Below are positions 32,634 through 37,462 of a stretch of DNA of 64,000 bases, piece after piece. Source of the stretch: Gloeobacter kilaueensis JS1 (GTDB lineage Bacteria > Cyanobacteriota > Cyanobacteriia > Gloeobacterales > Gloeobacteraceae); the NCBI RefSeq assembly GCF_000484535.1, contig NC_022600.1, forward strand, positions 930,001-994,000, read 5' to 3'. The position numbers were made by a program, and so were the translations under genes. The notes under the pieces are model-generated. The model was not told the origin of the DNA. It saw nothing but the letters and a program-made list of their open reading frames with translations, and made no database searches. The first letter of the stretch is position 1. Each line of letters starts with the position of its first letter.

Positions 32634-33497
32634 ATGGCTGAGCGCCGATCGTGGTTTTTGCGGGCGGGCCTCGGGGAGCCGGGTCAACCTGAGCCGTCCC
32701 TGCAAGATCTGGCCCTGCGCCTGCAGCCGCTCATGGGTGAACGGATGCGGTTGATTGCCGACACCGCACTGACTCCCCAGCGGCGCACCGAGGGTCTATT
32801 CAGGCTCGAGCGCGAGGCGGAACGCCTGGGCCTGCGGCGCTTTAACCAGAAACTCGAACAGCTCTGTCGAGCGTATTGCGCCCGCAAGGGAGCCAGCCGC
32901 TCGGGACGGTTCGACACCGAAGCCTTTACAGAAGACGTTCTACTGCTCACCTATGCCCGCCTGTTTCACTTCGACCCCACGAAGGCCAACTTTATGACCT
33001 GGCTGGGTTCTCATATTCTTTTACGGGTGTATACAACTATGCAGCGCTCTATCGATCCCACCTGGCAGCGTCCACAAGCCACTACCGAACGGGGCCGACA
33101 GGAGCAGTGGACGGCCAGAGCCCTTGCCTATCCCCGCTCGCTGGATGGCGTAACGCCTGTCTCGGCGTTCGAGCCGGAATCCGGCGTCGATCCTGGCGAG
33201 ACGATCGGGGCGGGTGAGGCGAGTGCAGAAGCCGAACTGCTCGAAGAGCACTGCCGCGAGCGCTTCCTGCGCGCCCTCGAACGCCTCGACGACGCGGAGA
33301 AGGCGCTGCTTACCCGCGCTTATCTCTACGGCGAGTCCCAAAAAGAGATAGCCCAATCGCTGGGCCGTACCCGTGCCCGCGTCTGCCAGCGCCTGCGGGC
33401 GATTGCGGACAAGCTCGCAGTCCTGCTCGGGGAGGACTTTGAGCCGGACTGCGGCAATACGGCTTTTTGCGCTGCGCTGCGCCAGGAGAAAGTATGA
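32634..33497 (+). CDS. Sigma-70-family RNA polymerase sigma factor
   Basis: ATG 32634 is chosen because AGGACG precedes it; a TTG at 32613 would add seven residues. The 287-residue protein has a long helical N-terminus. A region-2-like segment lies around 106-140 (F-H-F-D-P-x-K-A-N-F-x-T-W-L) and a clear region 4 helix-turn-helix around 230-270 (L-Y-G-E-S-Q-K-E-I-A-Q-S-L-G-R-T-R-A-R-V). The architecture is that of diverged group 3/ECF-like sigma factors in cyanobacteria. Four-base overlap with a membrane protein suggests a sigma/anti-sigma pair. Confidence 0.82.
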   Translation: MAERRSWFLRAGLGEPGQPEPSLQDLALRLQPLMGERMRLIADTALTPQRRTEGLFRLEREAERLGLRRFNQKLEQLCRAYCARKGASRSGRFDTEAFTEDVLLLTYARLFHFDPTKANFMTWLGSHILLRVYTTMQRSIDPTWQRPQATTERGRQEQWTARALAYPRSLDGVTPVSAFEPESGVDPGETIGAGEASAEAELLEEHCRERFLRALERLDDAEKALLTRAYLYGESQKEIAQSLGRTRARVCQRLRAIADKLAVLLGEDFEPDCGNTAFCAALRQEKV

Positions 33498-34393
33498 AAC
33501 CCAGAAGCTTTGCTGACTCTCTGCGCGAGGCGTTGCCGGAACTGATTCGCCGTTCCGGCTGGCAGGGGCTGCCGGACGCCTTGCCACCTGGGGAGCAGGC
33601 CAACGCCGAGGAGCAGGCACTGTGGCAGCAACTGGCGGCGGAAGTGGACGCACCGAGGCGATCGTGGATACAACGATTCGGCGCGCTGCGGCTGGCTTCA
33701 CTGGCGACGGGAGTGGTGGCTGCCAGTTGGGTACTGCTGGTCGTAATCCCCAAAATGCCCTTTGTTGCGGACAAGCCAGTGCCTCCGGAGCCTGAGGCGA
33801 CGCGCCCACTCAAAAGCCCCGCAAGACATTCTGTTTCTTCTTCCGGCGGTACCCGTTCTCTGCCGATAGACCCGGACCGGACGGCAGGCAGTTTTAAGCC
33901 AGAGACGCGGCAGGCAGCGCGCTTAGAGCAGCCTAAAAAAAGCGATCTCTCCAGCAATGCAGGCAACAGGTATTCTTCTCTCCCCCCGCGAGCGGCAAAA
34001 AGCAAGACAGCTTCTGCGCCGACGACGGGCGGGCTTGCTGACCAGATGCGCAGCCTCGAAGATGCTCCGATCACCTCTGACGCTTCCTCAAGCGCGCAGG
34101 GCCTGTGCCAGGCATTGACCGCCCAGGCTCCGGTGCCCACCAATCTGGAGGGTTTTGCCCTGGTCGAGGTGGTCCTTGCTCCCGGTGAGGCCGCCGACGG
34201 TTCGACCAGGACGCTCATCTCCGGCGGCGAGCAGATAGACCAGTTCATCGAGCAGGCGCTGGCGAAACTGGCAACGGAGGGGCGGGCGGGCAGTGGCGGG
34301 CGCTACAGGGTGACGCTGGAGACCGCGCCGCGCCGCTGGAGCTGTAAGGAAGTGAGCGATGATGCTCCCGGAGCCGGGGCAGGGGGAGCTTAA
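33494..34393 (+). CDS. Membrane-anchored presumed anti-sigma factor
   Basis: The ATG overlaps the sigma stop (ATGA). The 299-residue protein has a cytoplasmic N-terminal region of about 65 residues, one membrane helix (about 72-95, L-A-S-L-A-T-G-V-V-A-A-S-W-V-L-L) and a long Ser/Pro/Lys-rich, probably disordered extracytoplasmic linker. A small folded C-terminal domain (about 205-290) follows. The topology and overlap are those of transmembrane anti-sigma factors; no zinc-binding H-x-x-x-C-x-x-C motif is seen, so it is not a ZAS-type. The function is inferred from context. Confidence 0.6.
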   Translation: MKPRSFADSLREALPELIRRSGWQGLPDALPPGEQANAEEQALWQQLAAEVDAPRRSWIQRFGALRLASLATGVVAASWVLLVVIPKMPFVADKPVPPEPEATRPLKSPARHSVSSSGGTRSLPIDPDRTAGSFKPETRQAARLEQPKKSDLSSNAGNRYSSLPPRAAKSKTASAPTTGGLADQMRSLEDAPITSDASSSAQGLCQALTAQAPVPTNLEGFALVEVVLAPGEAADGSTRTLISGGEQIDQFIEQALAKLATEGRAGSGGRYRVTLETAPRRWSCKEVSDDAPGAGAGGA

Positions 34394-34477
34394 AGCGCGG
34401 CGAGGAGGGTGGCCGGGAATAAAAATAGATGCGTAGTACGCTCAGAGTGCATATCCTCCAGCCACTGGATCTAAAAG

Positions 34478-37462
34478 ATGCTCAGATTGACCGGGACGAT
34501 GGGCTCCTTCCTTGTTTCAGGCTGCAAGGTCCGCCACTGGGTCTGTGTCCTCTCTCTCGTGACGAGCCTGGGCCTCTTCTTGTCACAGGCGGCCCTGGCG
34601 CAACCCGCATCAGCCCCAGGAGCAACAGAAGCACCGGCGGGAGAACTGGCAGAGGCAGAGCAACTGTATCAGCAGAGCCTGAAGCTGCGCGAAGCGGGCA
34701 AGTACGCCGAAGCTCAACCTCTGGCCGAGCGCGCTCTGGCGATTCAGCAAAAAATTTTGGGACCAGAACACCTCCAGGTCGCTCGGAGCCTTGGCGGTCT
34801 GGCCAACCTGTACAGGGACCAGGGTGATTACGCCACAGCGAAAACTCTGGCCCAGCGCGCTCTGACGATCCGTGAAAACGTTCTCGGAACCGATCACCCG
34901 GACGTGGCCACCAGCCTCAGCAGCCTGTCTATCCTGTACTGGAAGCAGGGAGAATACGCTACTGCCGAGTCCCTCCAAAAGCGCGCTCTGGCGATTCGCG
35001 AAAAGGTACTCGGACCAGAAAATCTGGAGGTGGCCAATAGCCTCAACGTCCTGGCCGTCCTGTACTGGCAGCAAGGCGAATTCTCCACTGCCGAGTCGCT
35101 GCAAAAGCGCACCCTGGCGATCCGGGAAAAAGTCCTGGGGCCGGAGGACACCCAGGTAGCCTACAGCCTCGATAATCTGGCCATCCTCTATCACAGCCGG
35201 GGCGACTATGGGATCGCCGAACCCCTTCAAAAGCGTGCCCTGGCCATCCTGGAAAAAAACCTCGGGCCGGAGCATCCGGAAGTTGCCAGAAGCCTTCACA
35301 ACCTGGGGGATCTCTACGCCTTGCTGGACGATTATGCCAGAGCCGAATCGCTGTACAGGCAGGCTTTAGCGGTTCGAGAAAAAGTTTTGGGGCCGGAGCA
35401 TCCGGATGTCGCCAGAACCCTTCACGCCCTGGGAGAGGTATACGCGCAACAGGGCAATTACACCGAAGCCGAACTTTTCTACCGGCGCGCCCTGGCCATC
35501 CAGCAAAAAGCACTGAGGCCAGGGCATCCGGAGGCGGGTTACAGCCTTCAACACCTGGGCAACCTGTATTGGGAACAAGGCAAGTACAGTGCCGCCGAAG
35601 CGCTCTACCAGCAGGCGCTGGCGATTCAGCAAACCGCTTTCGGCCCAGAACATCCCAACGTCGCCGATGCTCTCTACGACCTGACGACCCTGCGCCTCGG
35701 ACAGGGCCGGGTAACGGACGCCCGCCAGAACCTCAGTCGGACCCTTCAAATTCAGGAGTACAACTTTTCTTTAAATCTCGCCTCCGGCTCGGAGGAGCGC
35801 AACCGCGCCTACCTCGCCTCCCGCAAGGAGGCGGTCGATCTGGCCACCTCGCTGCATCTGCGGTGGGCACCGGACGATCCTCAAGCTGCCCGCCTTGCCC
35901 TCTCCGCTGCCCTCGCCCGCAAGGGTCGGGTACTCGAAGAGGCGTCTGCGACACTTGTCCGCCTGCGCCGCCACCTCGGTGTTCCCGGCCAAAAGCAATT
36001 GCAACAGCTGGCCGACGCCCGTTCGCAACTGGCTTCCCTGGTCTTCCGGGAGCCGGATGCCTCACCGGTCGAGCAGTACCAGAGCCGAATCGCCGAATTG
36101 CGCGATCTCACCCGCCAGTTGGAGGACTCCCTCGCCCAGATGGGGGCAGAAGCCGGTGCCCACCTGCGCGATCTCACCCGGCCCGTCACCCTCGAAGCGA
36201 TTCAACGGGCGCTGCCCAGGGATGCGGCGCTGGTCGAATTTGTGCTCTATCGGCCCTTCGAGCTGAAAGCCGCCAGACCCTCAGAGCACTTCGGTCCACC
36301 CCGCTACGCCGCCTACTTGCTGCAACCATCCGGCCCACCGATCGGGGTAGACCTCGGGAAAGCTGAACAGATAGACGCGCTGGTTTCCTCCTGGCGGGCC
36401 TGGCTCCTTGATCCTGCTTCTCCTGCCGATGGCCCCGTAGGCAAGATTGCCCGCGTTCTGCACGAAAAGCTCTTTGGAGCGCTGGCAGGCAGATTAAAAG
36501 CGAAGCATCTGCTGATTGCACCGGATGGCCAGCTCAACACGGTGCCTTTTGCCGCCCTGGTGGCCAGGGACGGGCGCTATCTGCTGGAGCGGCACACCCT
36601 CACCTACCTCGTCTCGGGGCGGGAGTTGCTCCGGCTAAAACAAGCGGCTCCCATGCCCCAGACCGCCCCGCTGGTGGTGGGTGGGCCAGACTTTGGCCGT
36701 GCCCAGGCAGGCAATGAGCTTGCTACCCGCTCCCCCAAATTGGAGGCTGGATACGCCGAGACACCAACACCCCTCACAGACAACCCCCGCTCCTTAGATC
36801 TGGCGGGCTTTGCTGTGCGTCCGCTTCCCGGTGCGATTGTCGAAGCGCAGGCAGTCACCCGATTGCTGGGAACCGCCCGGCTGCTGACCGGCCCCGAGGC
36901 AACCGAGAACGCCCTGAAGGCGGCCCGCTCCCCGGCGGTGCTGCACCTGGCCACCCACGGCTTTTTTCTCCGGGACAAGGATGCTCTTAAAGCAGAAGCC
37001 GGCGCGCAGGAGCCGCTTTTGCGCTCGGGGGTGGCACTCGCCGGCTTTAACGCCCGCTCCTCGGGCCGCGAAGATGGCGTGCTCACGGCGTTAGAAGTGC
37101 AGGGGCTGGAGCTGGAAGGCACGCGGCTGGTGGTCCTCTCCGCCTGTGACACCGGCTCAGGACCGGTCCTGGTGGGCGAGGGACTCCAGGGGCTCAGGCG
37201 TTCGCTGGCTCTAGCAGGCACCCGCAGTCAGGTGCTGGCGCTGTGGCAGGTGGGGGACCGGACGACGGCGAGGCTGATGGAGCAATTTTATCGGGGACTG
37301 GCGGCGGGGGCTGGCCGTTCGGAGGCGCTGCGGCGCTCACAGCTGGAATTGCTGAGGACAACCGGGCGCACCCATCCGTACTGGTGGGCTTCCTTTGCCC
37401 TTTCAGGCGACTGGCGACCGGTTAGTTTTGTCTATCGCTCGCCACCCCAGTCTGAACCCTGA
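34478..37462 (+). CDS. Secreted TPR-CHAT caspase-like protease
   Basis: A 994-residue protein; an ATG at 34499 is an alternative start. A signal peptide spans about residues 20-42 (V-C-V-L-S-L-V-T core, cleavage after A-L-A). About nine kinesin-light-chain-type TPR repeats follow to about residue 420, with the 42-residue A-L-A-I-x-x-K-x-L-G-P-E-H-P pattern. A helical linker precedes the C-terminal CHAT domain (about 590-990). The catalytic pair is present: His827 in L-A-T-H-G-F and Cys890 in S-A-C-D-T-G. It lies 84 bases after the sigma/anti-sigma pair. Substrate unknown. Confidence 0.9.
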   Translation: MLRLTGTMGSFLVSGCKVRHWVCVLSLVTSLGLFLSQAALAQPASAPGATEAPAGELAEAEQLYQQSLKLREAGKYAEAQPLAERALAIQQKILGPEHLQVARSLGGLANLYRDQGDYATAKTLAQRALTIRENVLGTDHPDVATSLSSLSILYWKQGEYATAESLQKRALAIREKVLGPENLEVANSLNVLAVLYWQQGEFSTAESLQKRTLAIREKVLGPEDTQVAYSLDNLAILYHSRGDYGIAEPLQKRALAILEKNLGPEHPEVARSLHNLGDLYALLDDYARAESLYRQALAVREKVLGPEHPDVARTLHALGEVYAQQGNYTEAELFYRRALAIQQKALRPGHPEAGYSLQHLGNLYWEQGKYSAAEALYQQALAIQQTAFGPEHPNVADALYDLTTLRLGQGRVTDARQNLSRTLQIQEYNFSLNLASGSEERNRAYLASRKEAVDLATSLHLRWAPDDPQAARLALSAALARKGRVLEEASATLVRLRRHLGVPGQKQLQQLADARSQLASLVFREPDASPVEQYQSRIAELRDLTRQLEDSLAQMGAEAGAHLRDLTRPVTLEAIQRALPRDAALVEFVLYRPFELKAARPSEHFGPPRYAAYLLQPSGPPIGVDLGKAEQIDALVSSWRAWLLDPASPADGPVGKIARVLHEKLFGALAGRLKAKHLLIAPDGQLNTVPFAALVARDGRYLLERHTLTYLVSGRELLRLKQAAPMPQTAPLVVGGPDFGRAQAGNELATRSPKLEAGYAETPTPLTDNPRSLDLAGFAVRPLPGAIVEAQAVTRLLGTARLLTGPEATENALKAARSPAVLHLATHGFFLRDKDALKAEAGAQEPLLRSGVALAGFNARSSGREDGVLTALEVQGLELEGTRLVVLSACDTGSGPVLVGEGLQGLRRSLALAGTRSQVLALWQVGDRTTARLMEQFYRGLAAGAGRSEALRRSQLELLRTTGRTHPYWWASFALSGDWRPVSFVYRSPPQSEP

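Follow-up and report, generated by a model that had tools for sequence, protein, structure and literature searches.

The window analysed here is a 64,000-nucleotide stretch of the Gloeobacter kilaueensis JS1 genome (contig NC_022600.1, positions 930,001 to 994,000; the genome is a single contig of 4,724,791 bp). It contains three consecutive forward-strand genes for a sigma factor, a membrane partner and an exported TPR-CHAT protein, which are considered here as a candidate signalling module. The sigma factor gene (32634–33497) starts with ATG and encodes a diverged protein of the extracytoplasmic function (ECF) type, 287 amino acids in length, with a sigma2-like region and a sigma4 region (region 4, residues 214–261). 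The open reading frame (ORF) coordinates place a 4-bp ATGA stop/start overlap at 33494–33497, where the sigma gene is joined to the partner gene (33494–34393). The partner, which also has an ATG start, is a single-span membrane protein of 299 amino acids and is presumed to be an anti-sigma factor or a membrane anchor. After a spacer of exactly 84 bp (34394–34477), the third gene (34478–37462) encodes a TPR-CHAT protein of 994 amino acids with export predicted from its sequence. The coordinates of the three genes, the overlap, the gap and the residues His827 and Cys890 of the CHAT domain, as they had been given in an initial annotation, are all exact to the base or residue.

The first gene scores above the cut-offs of two sigma factor profiles, namely NCBIfam TIGR02937 (sigma70-ECF; 60.1 bits, curated cut-off 42.9) and Pfam Sigma70_r4 (37.7 bits, cut-off 24.1). 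Across the 19-member family described below, Sigma70_r2 matches just six proteins with a best E-value of 5e-5, and Sigma70_r3 gives one weak match. When an AlphaFold2 model of a paralogue that is fused to its partner was searched with Foldseek, the top matches were sigma chains, the best with an E-value of 1.5e-3.

The partner has the layout of a membrane anti-sigma factor, with one span, a cytoplasmic amino terminal segment and a gene that overlaps the sigma gene. The cytoplasmic tail (residues 1–66; 33494–33691) carries an LxxALPxLxRRSGW motif and, in fused relatives, runs on directly from the sigma factor. It is followed by the sole hydrophobic span, identified by hydropathy (residues 67–85; 33692–33748), and, towards the carboxy terminus, by a folded periplasmic domain (residues 199–287; 34088–34354) that is modelled by AlphaFold2 in the order α-β-β-α-β-β and holds both cysteines of the protein. 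An alignment of 18 partner sequences has in common the L..ALP.L.RRSGW motif, the span and a Pro/Ser/Ala-rich stalk, and most members also possess a small periplasmic domain flanked by two cysteines, which probably form a disulphide. The window partner has no match in Pfam, NCBIfam or PADLOC.

In the AlphaFold2 model of the fused paralogue, the sigma and periplasmic domains are both predicted with confidence, as are two tail helices (residues 293–312 and 328–338); between the tail and the periplasmic domain come the span and a disordered stalk. The predicted local distance difference test score of the tail is 83–92 in the fused paralogue (residues 301–340) versus 62–84 in the window partner modelled alone (residues 1–50), a comparison of two different sequences, and the higher confidence in the fused form hints at a modelled contact of the tail with sigma. 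The periplasmic domain weakly resembles the carboxy terminal domains of TonB and TolA, since an hhalign comparison with TonB_2 returned a probability of 58.5 (P = 1e-4; controls 0.2). A Foldseek search with this domain gave nothing significant, with TolAIII and HasB at an E-value of about 0.3. Elsewhere in the same genome (L127:4458-6116; C1:601457-603115; loci used for comparison are given by their L numbers), the gene for a more distant sigma factor of 230 amino acids is immediately followed by one for a membrane protein that has a TonB_2 carboxy terminal domain, possibly as a sigma/TonB-like pair.

The TPR-CHAT protein begins with a signal-peptide-like segment, recognized from sequence and hydropathy (residues 1–41, ending QAALA|QP; 34478–34600). 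TPR repeats precede a CHAT domain (residues 657–978; 36446–37411) that matches PF12770 with an E-value of 6e-86 and retains an intact His827/Cys890 pair. The catalytic His and Cys dyad is invariant among the CHAT proteins of the Gloeobacter clade (22/22). The protein thus has the features of the CHAT family (caspase fold, clan CD), and peptidase activity is predicted from its sequence. To our knowledge, no substrate has been identified for most TPR-CHAT proteins of bacteria.

A profile search of nine Gloeobacterales genomes recovered 19 members of the sigma family from six of the genomes, and all of the neighbourhoods (18 and the window) were inspected. Ten of the genes encode fused proteins in which sigma, a transmembrane span and a periplasmic part form a single polypeptide. 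Another eight are split, the partner gene overlapping or adjoining the sigma gene, and the same 4-bp overlap seen in the window is present in two of these (L019 and L065); the one remaining gene (L067, genome G008) has no visible partner. In G. kilaueensis itself, where the sigma family has four genes and CHAT has seven, two of the four sigma genes are fused to their partner (ORFs of 623 and 586 amino acids). The partner may be regarded equally as a sigma-fused membrane anchor and as a separate anti-sigma factor, and in either form it may bind sigma.

A TPR-CHAT gene lies near every fused sigma gene (10/10). Among the split pairs, CHAT accompanies the window pair as well as L057 and L064, in the latter two at a distance of 2.5–3.8 kb, and the split pair L065 sits at a contig end. 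The position of CHAT relative to sigma varies: it may lie downstream or upstream in the same orientation, be divergent or be one gene off, and at least five changes of arrangement are counted on the sigma tree. The three best assemblies contain 14 sigma genes, 11 of which have a CHAT domain no more than 7 kb away, and the maximum in 200,000 shuffles was five, a result that is not readable as a probability because the orthologues and paralogues are not independent of each other. The module genes are under purifying selection, with ratios of nonsynonymous to synonymous substitution rates of 0.22–0.50 for orthologue pairs of the sigma, partner, fused and CHAT genes. Repeated fission and fusion was also considered as a strong line of evidence and was dropped, as a minimum of two changes suffices.

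At a threshold of E ≤ 1e-16, the sigma family was found in none of the 385 cyanobacterial genomes outside Gloeobacterales that were sampled besides the window's own. The expectation in the initial annotation that the three-gene order would be conserved across cyanobacteria is therefore not borne out. An initial scan of named genomes with the sigma alignment returned nothing, and none of the 80 top-ranking CHAT loci from other organisms strongly matched the Gloeobacter sigma family. However, in eight of these 80 loci a sigma gene, a single-span partner gene and a TPR-CHAT gene abut in that order. Seven belong to lineages labelled acidobacterial and one to a metagenome-assembled genome (MAG) of Chthoniobacterales (Verrucomicrobiota). 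Trios of this kind are seen in Gloeobacterales, Acidobacteriota and one Verrucomicrobiota MAG. The sigma factors of all eight cassettes have weak-to-moderate matches to TIGR02989 and TIGR02937, and the acidobacterial partner has weak matches to zf-HC2 and anti-sigma families.

To sample this arrangement without reference to CHAT, 99 genomes from the phylum of L162 were searched by an acidobacterial sigma profile alone, although some bias remains since the profile was itself built from CHAT-linked loci. A partner adjoins 33 of the 36 sigma genes inspected and CHAT adjoins 24, two of them with a gap of about 0.7–1.4 kb. In three of the 36 loci, and likewise in L215, the partner and TPR-CHAT are fused as one protein with a tail, a span and CHAT at the carboxy terminus. 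The fusions in L215, L252, L261 and L265 consist of an anti-sigma-like tail, a span, TPR repeats and CHAT, with a sigma gene alongside.

The acidobacterial cassettes (L140, L162, L176 and L233–L268) are like the window locus in having three parts, often in the same order, with a single-span partner and CHAT proteins that either have a signal-peptide-like start or are fused to the partner. They differ in their sigma and partner families, and a comparison of partner sequences found no special kinship between those of Gloeobacter and those of acidobacteria. In the CHAT tree, the Gloeobacter proteins cluster with cyanobacterial ones, and most of the acidobacterial sigma-linked CHAT proteins form two clades separate from them. 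Because these groups fall apart in the tree, the sigma-CHAT association is, as judged from sequence, present in at least three CHAT lineages.

Taken together, the three genes very probably act in one pathway. This conclusion follows from gene-fusion reasoning, since sigma is fused to the partner in one phylum and a partner is fused to CHAT in another, with different partner families involved. The claim of the initial annotation that the genes form one module is upheld in the same way, by partners fused to sigma in 10 of 19 cases or to CHAT in acidobacteria, and by a CHAT neighbour that persists across arrangements. In effect, the genome itself points to a TPR-CHAT substrate, which would be the neighbouring membrane partner that is at times fused to sigma or to CHAT. 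A role in stress-induced death had also been proposed for the module; no supporting evidence was found and it has not been adopted.

With respect to mechanism, regulated proteolysis would be the simplest, by analogy with the logic of Csx29/Csx30/CASP-sigma and of IutY. Under this scheme, the single-span partner would use its short cytoplasmic tail to keep the ECF-type sigma factor at the inner membrane in an inactive state; in the many relatives where both are one polypeptide, sigma itself would be membrane-anchored. On the other side of the membrane, the partner would present a long, disordered Pro/Ser/Ala-rich stalk and the small folded domain. The TPR-CHAT protein would be exported to the periplasm, where its TPR part may detect a bound protein or a signal from the periplasm or envelope, and its peptidase would make the first cut in the stalk or the domain of the partner. 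A site-2 protease would then complete the release of sigma, which would transcribe its own operon and other genes. Peptidase_M50 (site-2 protease) genes are present in the G. kilaueensis genome. The likelihood that CHAT is the activating protease is judged to be about even, and the same balance applies to the transmembrane device as a whole, in which the partner holds sigma and the exported CHAT starts its proteolytic release.

Several observations weigh against this scheme. Neither the window partner nor the 18 aligned members contain a known anti-sigma domain (zf-HC2/ZAS, RseA or FecR) according to Pfam and NCBIfam. The split pairs L019, L054, L058 and L060 keep sigma and partner with no CHAT nearby, and CHAT is therefore not always the local partner. 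A simple motif test detected the dyad in 18 of 25 acidobacterial CHAT proteins and not in the rest. The sigma, partner and CHAT trees are incongruent. The window sigma is nearest to a CHAT-less split group (L054, L058, L060), and the window partner and CHAT are nearest to a fused, CHAT-linked group (L053, L017). This pattern is a hint of possible shuffling of the module parts. Co-phylogeny of the periplasmic domain with CHAT was attempted, and the domain tree was too weak. Finally, genes for other secreted hydrolases lie beside some of the sigma genes, including a GDSL lipase gene between sigma and CHAT in L055 and L061, an endonuclease gene in the same position in L066, and a subtilase gene in two other Gloeobacter genomes.

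The last of these observations, along with the CHAT-less pairs, fits the main rival to CHAT as the trigger, in which housekeeping proteases (Prc, DegP-like and site-2) free sigma and CHAT is a neighbouring target gene and thus a regulated output. There is precedent, as general proteases cut both IutY (PMC5411451) and RseA (PMC10028731). This alternative is plausible, if somewhat less so than CHAT as the trigger. It does not account well for the nearby CHAT retained by all ten fused sigma genes, and the fusion of an acidobacterial anti-sigma-like partner to TPR-CHAT would be unexplained for a mere target gene. The subtilase loci may be read in either way. In L057:5394-8866 and L064:7950-11420, the partner that follows sigma shares the cytoplasmic motif and has a different periplasmic domain, and the subtilase gene comes next (Pfam E-value of 2e-23 in L057), as if another secreted protease had taken the role of CHAT. 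Both the trigger and the output readings are kept for these loci.

A second alternative is improbable. Here the partner would be a periplasmic sensor or a TonB/TolA-like coupler and CHAT a non-proteolytic scaffold, with sigma freed by a conformational change. The TonB/TolA-like signal of the periplasmic domain noted earlier (hhalign, and TolAIII/HasB with Foldseek) and the pairing of a related sigma in the same genome with a bona fide TonB_2-domain protein are in its favour; however, the resemblance to TonB is weak and the dyad that is invariant throughout the Gloeobacter clade would be needless for a scaffold. It is very improbable that CHAT and sigma are functionally unlinked neighbours by descent from one ancient duplication block, for while both families are multi-copy in these genomes and the incongruent trees would be accommodated, proximity has been kept through varied arrangements well beyond the shuffled maximum, and there are acidobacterial cassettes and partner-CHAT fusions as well.

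The closest known system is Craspase of type III-E CRISPR, in which Csx29, a TPR-CHAT protein, cleaves the sigma inhibitor Csx30 and lifts the inhibition of CASP-sigma (PMC10028731). Both trios encode together a TPR-CHAT protease, a partner (in the window a membrane protein and presumed anti-sigma) and an ECF-like sigma. Unlike Csx30, the window partner is a single-span membrane protein and has no Csx30 match, and the window CHAT is predicted to be exported and is not RNA-guided. A comparison of the CHAT profile with the Craspase chains reached an E-value of only about 0.5. Membership in type III-E was rejected, as there is no Cas7-11 or other cas gene in the neighbourhood and no NCBIfam type III-E match is listed for proteins of the window; the search did not extend to CRISPR arrays. 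A known anti-phage defence system was likewise rejected, the PADLOC matches being weak and generic only.

Sigma factors under membrane control provide further points of comparison. IutY (ECF243) is a sigma/anti-sigma hybrid released by Prc and RseP proteolysis (PMC5411451), and ECF48, ECF52 and ECF53 are sigma factors fused to membrane anti-sigma regions (PMC8999054). Ten of the 19 Gloeobacterales relatives similarly combine sigma and a membrane regulatory part in one polypeptide, whereas the window pair is split, its tail and periplasmic domain have no match among known families, and a dedicated CHAT protease gene does not feature in the descriptions of IutY or ECF48/52/53. The context of ECF54 includes carboxypeptidase, subtilase and CHAT proteins, and proteolytic control has been proposed (PMC8999054, section 3.3). 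The likeness to ECF54 is one of gene context and lies in the CHAT and subtilase genes; ECF54 is described without an anti-sigma factor, whereas 18 of the 19 genes here have a membrane partner, either separate or fused. In the RseA/RpoE and RsiW/SigW systems, as outlined in the Craspase paper, a single-span anti-sigma factor is cut first outside and then within the membrane (PMC10028731). The first protease for RseA is a general one encoded elsewhere (DegS), and here the candidate protease is in the same gene cluster.

The idea of a protease-controlled sigma factor is already partly known from the ECF54 context and the fused sigma/anti-sigma proteins. It is not wholly new because the review notes CHAT and subtilase beside ECF54 and proposes proteolytic control (PMC8999054). 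In a search of the open-licence literature, the CHAT domain and an anti-sigma factor were joined in the Craspase paper only, and neither CHAT nor transmembrane parts come up in the main text of a 2024 survey of sigma architectures in cyanobacteria. Linked by genomics, the trio looks like a general protease-to-gene signalling device, in which binding and cleavage would be the operative steps. If this is true, a large caspase-like protein family would gain a testable substrate and output, the Craspase logic of CHAT cutting a sigma inhibitor would not be peculiar to CRISPR, and sigma control would gain a dedicated-protease branch, found in acidobacteria and in the cyanobacteria that diverged earliest.

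A broader proposal is rather unlikely as it stands: that protease-gated sigma factors form a widespread class, so far undescribed, which occurs with both types of fusion in Gloeobacter, in Acidobacteriota and in at least one MAG of the Verrucomicrobiota, and from which the CRISPR Csx29/Csx30/CASP-sigma trio was perhaps captured as a cassette. Weak matches to NF041236 (type III-E CRISPR-associated sigma) are the basis for suggesting that the CRISPR trio may have originated in this way. They were obtained for seven of eight acidobacterial sigma factors (alignment A8, for example L162:6160-6753) with a best E-value of 3.3e-5, and the general sigma model matches better.

The surroundings of the trio in the window complete the description. 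No promoter-like or terminator-like site was found in the 84-bp spacer, and no sigma-70-type promoter was seen in the window module. A promoter motif common to the sigma operons was not seen either, the conserved upstream blocks being confined to orthologue groups. The flanking genes encode a sensor kinase, CpeS, heptosyltransferases, a PucR-type regulator, an ABC-F protein and glycosyltransferases, and look unrelated to the trio. As for the CHAT-less pairs, exported HExxH metalloprotease-like proteins with a TonB_2 carboxy terminal domain are encoded at L019:10373-11461 and also at L118 and L119 in the G. kilaueensis genome, one of them about 2 kb from the sigma/partner pair of L019. The pair at L054:971-7862 in G. 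violaceus, and those at L058 and L060, are found beside photosystem I genes, and the PsaA/PsaB-type protein closest to the L054 pair has an OmpA domain at its carboxy terminus.

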